A stretch of 64,000 nucleotides of DNA, taken from the NCBI GenBank assembly GCA_002692855.1, contig NZMJ01000046.1, forward strand, positions 129,018-193,017, written 5' to 3'. Shown piece by piece: positions 47,796-49,887 of this stretch. The translations under genes and the position numbers were made by a program. Within the stretch, counting starts at the first letter, position 1. Every line of letters begins with the position of its first letter. A model generated the notes under the pieces. That model saw only the letters and a list, made by a program, of their open reading frames with translations, was not told where the DNA came from and did not search any database. Origin of the DNA: Maricaulis sp. (GTDB lineage Bacteria > Pseudomonadota > Alphaproteobacteria > Caulobacterales > Maricaulaceae).

Positions 47796-47896
47796 GCGAA
47801 CCTGACTGAACCGTTCATCTTGCGCTCATGGCAAGTGCGTTAACCCTTTCGCAAGCTCGCCCGGACTGTGGCGGGACAACGAAGGAGACCAACGCC

Positions 47897-48997
47897 ATGA
47901 AGCAGTCCCCACGGACATTGCTGGCCGCTCTATCGTCAGCCATTCTGGCTTCGGGTTTCGGCGCAATGGTTGCGCCGTCCGCGCTTGCAGCACCCGTTCT
48001 CGACGAAGAAATTTCAACCATCGTCTTCATTCAGGAAGACGGCCGGGGAGGTCGCGGTGGACGCGGCGATCGCGATGCCCGCACACCCGATGAACGACCG
48101 GGCATGACCCGGCATCCGGGGATCGACGACCGGGGCGGCCGCGGCGGGCGTGACGGACGCGGCGATGGCCGCGGTGGTCGTGACGGGCGCGGCGGCAATG
48201 ACGGTCGCGGTGACCATTGGCGTGACGGACGTGGCGGCAATGACGGTCGTGGTGACAATTGGCGCGACAACCGCGGTGGACGCGGCGACCACTGGCGTGA
48301 CAATCGCGGTGGCCGTGGCGATCACTGGCGCGACAATCGCGGTGGACGCGATCCGCGTTACAACAACAACCATCGTCCGGACCCGCGCTTCAACAACCGG
48401 GGCAGCCGCGACTGGCGCAATCGGCATTACACGCCGCCGCGTTACCGAAATCACACCCCGCCGCGTTATCGCAACTACAACCCGCCGCGCTACCGGAACT
48501 ACTCGCCGCCGCGCCGCACGTATTACAATACGCCGCGCAACAACTGGCGCTATCACACGACGTACTACAATCGTGGGTATGACCGTCACAATTACCGCTA
48601 TTACGACGCAGGTTGCGGCGCGAGCGGCGGTGATGTCTTCGCCGGTGCGATTCTCGGCGCCTTGTTCGGTGTCGCCGTGGCCGACGATGACGGAGCCGGC
48701 GCGCTGTTCGGTGGCCTGGTCGGTGCCGGCCTGTCGGCCAGCCTGAACTCGTGCGATCGTGGCCAGTACTACTATGCGGCCAGCTATTCGTTCGATCACA
48801 ACCAGCCCTATTACTGGCACAACCCGCATTCGGGTGTCCGCGGCGTGGTCCATGCCCGTGATTACTACAATTACGGTGGGCGCCGTTGCCGTTGGGGTGA
48901 TGCCGAGATCTTCATGCCCAACGGGGACTACACGACCGACCGCATCCTGATGTGTCAGGACCGCTATGGTCGCTGGGAAGTCGCGCGCCGCCAGTAG
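47897..48997 (+). CDS. Secreted low-complexity protein: RGG/RDNRGG repeats, PPRYRN repeats, glycine zipper, Cys-rich C-terminus
   Basis: Signal peptide MKQSPRTLLAALSSAILASGFGAMVAPSALA; repeats GRGDHWRDNRG and TPPRYRNH/TPPRYRNY/NPPRYRNY; C-terminal CRWGDAEIFMPNGDYTTDRILMCQDRYGRW. Confidence 0.85.
   Translation: MKQSPRTLLAALSSAILASGFGAMVAPSALAAPVLDEEISTIVFIQEDGRGGRGGRGDRDARTPDERPGMTRHPGIDDRGGRGGRDGRGDGRGGRDGRGGNDGRGDHWRDGRGGNDGRGDNWRDNRGGRGDHWRDNRGGRGDHWRDNRGGRDPRYNNNHRPDPRFNNRGSRDWRNRHYTPPRYRNHTPPRYRNYNPPRYRNYSPPRRTYYNTPRNNWRYHTTYYNRGYDRHNYRYYDAGCGASGGDVFAGAILGALFGVAVADDDGAGALFGGLVGAGLSASLNSCDRGQYYYAASYSFDHNQPYYWHNPHSGVRGVVHARDYYNYGGRRCRWGDAEIFMPNGDYTTDRILMCQDRYGRWEVARRQ
48120..48357 (+). repeat. 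Degenerate coding tandem repeat (RGG/RDNRGG; about 33-bp units in the distal part)
   Basis: e.g. GGACGCGGCGACCACTGGCGTGACAATCGCGGT followed by GGCCGTGGCGATCACTGGCGCGACAATCGCGGT. Confidence 0.85.
48430..48525 (+). repeat. 24-bp coding tandem repeat encoding (T/N/S)PPRYRN(H/Y)
   Basis: Three to four consecutive units TPPRYRNH, TPPRYRNY, NPPRYRNY, SPPRRTYY. Confidence 0.85.
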
Positions 48998-49023
48998 GTT
49001 CGCCAATCCAGCATGAATATTGC

Positions 49024-49047
49024 GAAGCCGGCGGAAACGCCGGCTTC
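49024..49047. terminator. Strong stem-loop after the RGG protein, terminator-like but with weak T-tract
   Basis: GAAGCCGGCG-GAAA-CGCCGGCTTC: 10-bp perfect stem with GNRA-type loop. Confidence 0.5.
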
Positions 49048-49131
49048 GTTCATTCTGGGCTCATCGCGGTCTGCTATGGTCCTTGCAACGATCCGGCCAG
49101 AAGTGCCGGCGGACCTGAAAGGAGTTCGACC

Positions 49132-49887
49132 ATGAAAATGATCAAGATTGCTCTGCTCGCCGCAGCGTCCGCAGCCGTGCTCACGCCGGCCGCTACTGCG
49201 CAGGCCCAGACCTATCGCAGCGTTCAGGAGTGCGAAGCCGCTCGCCAGAACCGCCAGGTGGCCGGTGCCGTGATCGGTGCCATCATCGGTGGCGTGATCG
49301 CTGCTCAGGTTGAAGATGACATCGACGACCGCGACAATCGCCATTGGCGGGGTCGTGGCCGGGGTCACAACGACTATTACGGACGAGGCCGGGGTCGCGG
49401 ATATGATCGCGGCAATGAGAACGACGTCGCCGTTGCAGCGGGCGCCGGCATCGGCGGTCTGCTGGGCTACGGGGTCGCCAGCGGCCAGCCTTGCGGTCCG
49501 GTCTATCGTGACGATCGCAACGCCAACTATGGCGGCTACGACAATGGCGGATACTACGACAATCGCGCCTATGATGACGGCCGCTACGACAACACCGGCT
49601 ATTACGACGATCAGGGCCGGTATTACGAAGACAACCGCTACACGACGGGCAGCGGCGGCTACACCGGTGACCAGCGCTATTACAACTCGGGTTCGAACTC
49701 GCTCGCAGGCGCCCCGGACAGCTATGTCTATTCGCAGCCGTCGGCAGATGCCCGCGTTTACACAGCCACGTCGAACACGGCGTGCCGCTGGATGGAGACC
49801 CGCCGCGCTGATGGCTATGGCTCGGTGACAACCCAAAGTGTCTACATGTGCCAGGGATCCGATGGCATCTGGCGTCCCGCCAACTAG
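49132..49887 (+). CDS. Secreted low-complexity protein: glycine zipper, RG-rich and Y/G/D/N-rich region, Cys C-terminus
   Basis: MKMIKIALLAAASAAVLTPAATAQAQT; VAGAVIGAIIGGVIAAQV; RGRGRGHNDYYGRGRGRGYDRG; NYGGYDNGGYYDNRAYDDGRYDNTGYYDDQGRYYEDNRY; CRWMETRRADGYGSVTTQSVYMCQGSDGIW. Confidence 0.87.
   Translation: MKMIKIALLAAASAAVLTPAATAQAQTYRSVQECEAARQNRQVAGAVIGAIIGGVIAAQVEDDIDDRDNRHWRGRGRGHNDYYGRGRGRGYDRGNENDVAVAAGAGIGGLLGYGVASGQPCGPVYRDDRNANYGGYDNGGYYDNRAYDDGRYDNTGYYDDQGRYYEDNRYTTGSGGYTGDQRYYNSGSNSLAGAPDSYVYSQPSADARVYTATSNTACRWMETRRADGYGSVTTQSVYMCQGSDGIWRPAN

Follow-up and report, generated by a model that had tools for sequence, protein, structure and literature searches.

The closest described relatives of the two proteins analysed here are the 17 kDa surface antigens (PF16998, 17kDa_Anti_2, with PF05433, Rick_17kDa_Anti), which combine a pair of glycine zippers with a W-x-NP-x-SG-x-x-G motif and a CR...C(R/Q)...G.W ending. 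Proteins of this 17-kDa/glycine-zipper group score over the cut-off in 81 of 143 sampled alphaproteobacterial genomes. Literature searches found no mechanism for them in Alphaproteobacteria, and the group is without an assigned function in these bacteria. The profile of typical 17-kDa proteins matches SlyB in the PDB (7ojf and 7ojg, E 2.9e-7). SlyB is an outer-membrane lipoprotein of Escherichia coli and has been described as a stress-induced, ring-forming guard of the outer membrane (PMC13067283). A two-protein glycine-zipper system, CdzC/CdzD, is known from another alphaproteobacterium, Caulobacter; the Cdz proteins are toxins of 84–86 residues that depend on an immunity gene and on a type I secretion system of their own (PMC5380434), and no 17-kDa domain has been reported for them.

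A 64,000-nucleotide stretch of the genome of a Maricaulis species (the window) contains two consecutive genes, A and B, which lie on the same strand and exactly at the coordinates given by the first-pass annotation (Table 1). The signal peptides, glycine zippers and C-terminal sequences quoted there are present in both products. Protein A consists of a signal peptide, an arginine-rich disordered region, a glycine zipper and a beta domain resembling that of the 17-kDa antigens. In protein B, the signal peptide is followed by a first zipper, a basic linker, a second zipper, an acidic linker rich in tyrosine, aspartate and glycine, and a C-terminal beta hairpin. Comparison with the nearest relative shows purifying selection on both genes, dN/dS being approximately 0.11 (A) and 0.16 (B). 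AlphaFold models the C-terminus of A as a helix and four antiparallel strands (block pLDDT 83–90 across most of this part) and that of B, confidently, as a beta hairpin. A fold search of the PDB with the model of A returned no match for the beta domain (best E 0.08). The zippers and arms of both proteins are modelled with low confidence, and membrane insertion of the zippers is therefore only predicted.

Table 1 Features of the A-B locus, in coordinates of the window
Feature	Position	Strand	Basis
Promoter direct repeat of gene A, GTTCATCTTGCGCTCAT	47813..47829	+	exact GTTCATN5GCTCAT, conserved upstream of A
Gene A, 366 aa	47897..48997	+	translation, 48 tandem orthologues, dN/dS 0.11
A signal peptide, aa 1-31 (...SALA/AP), without lipobox	47897..47989	+	sequence, lipobox scan
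A low-complexity region, approximately aa 48-206, Arg/Gly-rich, then PPRYRN-repeat	48038..48514	+	tandem repeats, composition table
A glycine-zipper hairpin, aa 247-283, invariant Cys on either side	48635..48745	+	alignment, per-member Pfam, profile comparison
A C-terminal helix and antiparallel beta domain	48746..48994	+	Pfam per member, profile comparison, AlphaFold
A CRW...MCQ...W stretch, within the C-terminal beta domain	48887-48976	+	
Strong hairpin 3' of gene A, probable terminator, abutting the B promoter repeat	49022..49049	+	fold z -5.5 for 48995-49060
Promoter direct repeat of gene B, GTTCATTCTGGGCTCAT	49048..49064	+	exact GTTCATN5GCTCAT, conserved upstream of B
Gene B, 251 aa	49132..49887	+	translation, alignment, Pfam per member, model, composition
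B signal peptide, aa 1-26 (...AQAQ/T), without lipobox	49132..49209	+	sequence, lipobox scan
B glycine zipper 1, aa 42-60	49255..49311	+	PF05433/PF13488 in 47/47 members
B glycine zipper 2, aa 98-117	49423..49482	+	alignment, profile comparison
B Tyr/Gly/Asp-rich linker, aa 121-216, net negative	49492..49779	+	composition table
B C-terminal CRW...MCQ...W beta hairpin, aa 218-247	49783..49872	+	profile comparison, model

The first-pass annotation recognized no characterized family for the pair; both proteins, however, belong with the 17-kDa surface-antigen/glycine-zipper group. Pfam matches of the single proteins from the window are weak and below the curated cut-offs (19.4 bits for the C-terminal domain of A, where 26.6 are required, and 18 bits for B, where 24.2 are required), and it is the sets of orthologues that decide the family. 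Approximately the last 120 residues of A, comprising the zipper and the beta domain, form a divergent version of the 17-kDa surface-antigen domain: all 48 C-terminal domains of A match PF16998 (E up to 0.1, best 1e-7), and their profile aligns with that of 19 typical PF16998 members taken from other Alphaproteobacteria with a probability of 98.1% (E 9.1e-14) over 117 columns in the same order, from the zippers via the W-x-NP-x-SG-x-x-G motif to the last tryptophan of the CR...C(R/Q)...G.W ending. Each of the 47 B proteins has matches to two glycine-zipper families, PF05433 and PF13488, and the zippers of B match the 17-kDa group with a probability of 96.2%, with the C-terminal hairpin of B being linked to the group only via A. 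The C-terminal modules of A and B align with each other at 14 of 41 identical positions (E 0.001 in a single comparison), and the family profiles align with a probability of 96.8% (E 2e-10); together, the pairwise and profile alignments establish a likeness beyond chance. B is a protein of the same kind as A, with shorter modules. A and B are best read as non-lipidated descendants of the alphaproteobacterial 17-kDa surface-antigen/glycine-zipper 2TM group that became fixed in tandem in one family. The domain is known and the arrangement is new. Matches of the B profile to prion proteins were rejected as low-complexity matches; sequences from Clostridiales and Hungatella (L010, L011) were set aside because the tyrosine-rich linker alone was matched.

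Proteins of intermediate architecture occur in the same order of bacteria. In other families of this order, RcnB or LprI is fused to a cysteine-flanked zipper and a 17-kDa C-terminus (L169, 1072–1983, and L171, 961–1974). These fusions share the zipper and cysteine-flanked C-terminal domain with A; however, they carry the RcnB or LprI N-terminus in place of the disordered arm and have a classical ending of the CRQPDGTW type, and no B was found beside either of them. Short A-like proteins of approximately 190–230 residues (L103–L108), which lack the disordered arginine-rich arm and the promoter repeat described below, are encoded as a second A-like protein in some of the genomes with an A-B pair. 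The B orthologues of a sister family have endings such as CRTVWREVTLPDGQVVRDPATACREGYNGDWEIV (L218). In the genome that contains the window (G000), weak and identical PF16998 scores were obtained on contigs C35 and C172. This assembly has a size of 4.07 Mb, whereas other genomes of the genus have 2.2–2.8 Mb, and a contamination of 5.9%; the identical scores, the size and the contamination suggest that the assembly is mixed or duplicated.

A lipobox located just ahead of the zipper is present in all 21 typical 17-kDa members examined. By contrast, a lipobox scan detected it in none of 49 B proteins and in one doubtful case among 48 A proteins (L096), where the cysteine lies within the hydrophobic core of the signal peptide. 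Since they lack the lipobox, A and B are classed as a divergent branch of the 17 kDa surface antigen group rather than as members. SlyB is likewise a lipoprotein; the likeness of A and B to SlyB consists of a related glycine-zipper segment, reached via the 17-kDa profile, and of the probable outer-membrane setting, whereas the family profiles of A and B themselves gave no direct match to SlyB in the PDB profile search. Alignments show four invariant cysteines in A and four in B. The typical 17-kDa group has two, corresponding to the last two, and the extra invariant pair flanks the zippers in both A and B. A disulfide between these extra cysteines may hold the zipper hairpin closed at its base and so stand in for the lipid anchor. 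Two further differences from the antigens are the long disordered regions, arginine-rich in A and rich in tyrosine and aspartate in B, and the reduction of B to the zippers and the last beta hairpin.

The two genes are inherited together. Full-length A (E < 1e-25) was detected in 50 of 137 genomes of the family, and B is present in all 50; a clear B (E < 1e-9) without A was detected in a single further genome (G003). B lies directly downstream of A on the same strand at 48 of the 48 relative loci where both are on one contig, so that, with the window, the tandem is resolved in 49 genomes; in the fiftieth (G073), A and B are at separate contig ends. The pair occupies at least three chromosomal locations and is never split: in most genera it lies between aroC and tlyA; elsewhere it is flanked by a gene for an RNA methyltransferase and by tyrS, or adjoins a Na+/H+ antiporter cluster (the latter names assigned by eye). 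Occurrence at several genomic sites, always as a pair, indicates that A and B moved as a unit. B without A is more widespread, being found in the sister family, where one case is near aroC (L218, 4084–4995 and 6890–8011). This suggests that the locus first held B and acquired A and the promoter repeat afterwards. Its presence without A in the sister family and in G003 means that B has no strict need of A.

Both genes are preceded by the same element. The sequence GTTCAT-N5-GCTCAT, an 11-bp direct repeat, is located approximately 84 bp before each start codon and is followed, approximately 12 bases further on, by a TA-containing element resembling a -10 box. The repeat is conserved at 9 or more of 12 bases in 45 of 46 regions upstream of A, and at 10 or more in all 49 regions upstream of B; in upstream regions shuffled with the same composition, nine matching bases were reached in approximately 5% and ten in approximately 0.6%. 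A pattern search of the 4.07-Mb genome found the exact repeat twice only, at positions 47813 and 49048 of the window, and the reversed pattern gave zero sites. With a relaxed pattern, 16 sites were detected in seven genomes, ten of them at promoters of A or B. The repeat was not found at the B genes of the sister family. Exact sites isolated from the pair occur at position 1501 of both L193 and L190, one before a gene for a small uncharacterized protein and the other before that for a peptide-binding lipoprotein of an Opp-type transporter (identified by eye); they are possibly minor regulon members or chance occurrences. The strong hairpin after A directly adjoins the repeat of B, an arrangement that points to separate transcripts for the two genes under common control. 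Scans for sigma-70 promoters and simple terminators found nothing, the terminator scan having missed this hairpin, and no Rfam match exceeded the gathering scores.

The geometry of the repeat is that of OmpR/PhoB-family sites. It holds TCA-N8-TCA, the reverse complement of the CenR motif TGA-N8-TGA, with the same 11-bp period. In the CenKR regulon, the direct repeat is co-directional and located upstream of the -35 element (PMC9275681). By contrast, the element of A and B has the opposite orientation and lies nearer to the -10 position than CenR activator sites do, so CenR is only a lead as a candidate regulator. Membership of the ChvI regulon was rejected because the ChvI motif of Caulobacter, TTGC-N3-GCAA (PMC9731502), is a different sequence from the conserved element.

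The low-complexity arms have retained their composition and charge. The RGG and PPRYRN motifs highlighted in the first-pass annotation are lineage-specific tandem repeats that expanded locally in the A protein of the window, and in relatives runs of RDRR, RGD or QQRR stand in their place; it is the arginine-rich composition that is conserved. Arginine makes up 15–41% of the A arm, with zero to three lysines per whole protein, and the net charge of the arm is +4 to +53 in every full-length orthologue. The tail of B contains approximately 17% tyrosine and is net negative in every parsed orthologue. The opposite charges fit an association of the two arms, although complementarity does not prove contact.

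Because A and B are always paired and have a common promoter sequence, they probably build one envelope structure. The proposal of a two-protein envelope module is well supported by the universal tandem linkage, the joint relocation and the shared promoter element, and we are highly confident of the family relationship and of the paired, co-regulated nature of A and B. What we infer beyond this is their location, hetero-assembly and function. A and B would be exported by Sec and oxidized in the periplasm. The zipper hairpins would pack together within the outer membrane or alongside it, in the manner of SlyB, and would probably form a hetero-oligomer of A and B, with the small beta domains facing the periplasm. 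The cationic arginine-rich arm of A and the anionic tyrosine-rich arm of B may bind each other, anionic envelope polymers such as LPS and peptidoglycan, or both. Together they would form an inducible scaffold for stabilizing the outer membrane or tying it to adjoining layers; a single regulator of the OmpR/PhoB type would recognize the 11-bp direct repeat and switch on both promoters. An outer-membrane location is likely. The explanation as a whole is tentative and falls slightly short of even chances: A and B would be co-regulated outer-membrane partners of the SlyB/17-kDa type, without a lipid anchor, which assemble via the zippers and stabilize the envelope. The specific scaffold or guard mechanism is more doubtful. 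The most elaborate form of the proposal is improbable: a heterotypic outer-membrane layer in which the cationic arm of A meets the anionic arm of B, disulfide-clamped zippers take the place of lipid, and a regulator serves mainly or only the two promoters.

The pair may instead have arisen long ago by tandem duplication of a generic 17-kDa/zipper surface protein and be merely still adjacent, with arms that drift and have no specific function. That A and B have the zipper, the C-terminal module, the cysteine pattern and the promoter in common fits duplication, the repeat itself may be left over from such an event, and arm sequences vary widely among relatives. However, the pair has relocated to other chromosomal sites without separating, the sign of the charge of both arms is kept in all orthologues, and the A arm is itself under purifying selection (dN/dS approximately 0.12), which leaves neutral adjacency rather unlikely. 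Secretion signals, a cationic disordered arm and the naming of the group as surface antigens would also suit a pair for surface matrix or adhesion, with zippers in the outer membrane and arms that point outwards to bind polysaccharide or extracellular DNA. The neighbours are housekeeping genes (aroC, tlyA, dxs, tyrS and one resembling rumA), with no export, polysaccharide or holdfast genes adjoining, and nothing was found in favour of the holdfast or stalk role that had been envisaged; such a surface function is unlikely.

Far less probable are two further readings. Two adjoining glycine-zipper proteins in an alphaproteobacterium recall CdzC/CdzD (PMC5380434) and hence a bacteriocin for contact killing, but at 366 and 251 residues A and B are not of the Cdz size, their signal peptides are of the Sec type, and no type I secretion or immunity genes are among the listed neighbours. 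The RGG repeats of the A protein in the window had prompted a comparison with RNA-binding proteins and phase separation. Nucleic-acid binding of the RGG type, whether inside the cell or in extracellular condensates, finds no support in motif conservation, as RGG is not conserved in relatives; moreover, the signal peptides are conserved, and the combination of zipper and beta domain is of the envelope type. It is, like the bacteriocin reading, very improbable.

The features that are new here are an obligate tandem pair, its occurrence at several chromosomal sites, and a promoter repeat before both genes. A variant of the 17-kDa/zipper proteins that comes with a linked partner under shared control and a promoter tag that is nearly unique, and that lacks a lipid anchor, provides a clean genetic handle of two genes and one presumed regulator.
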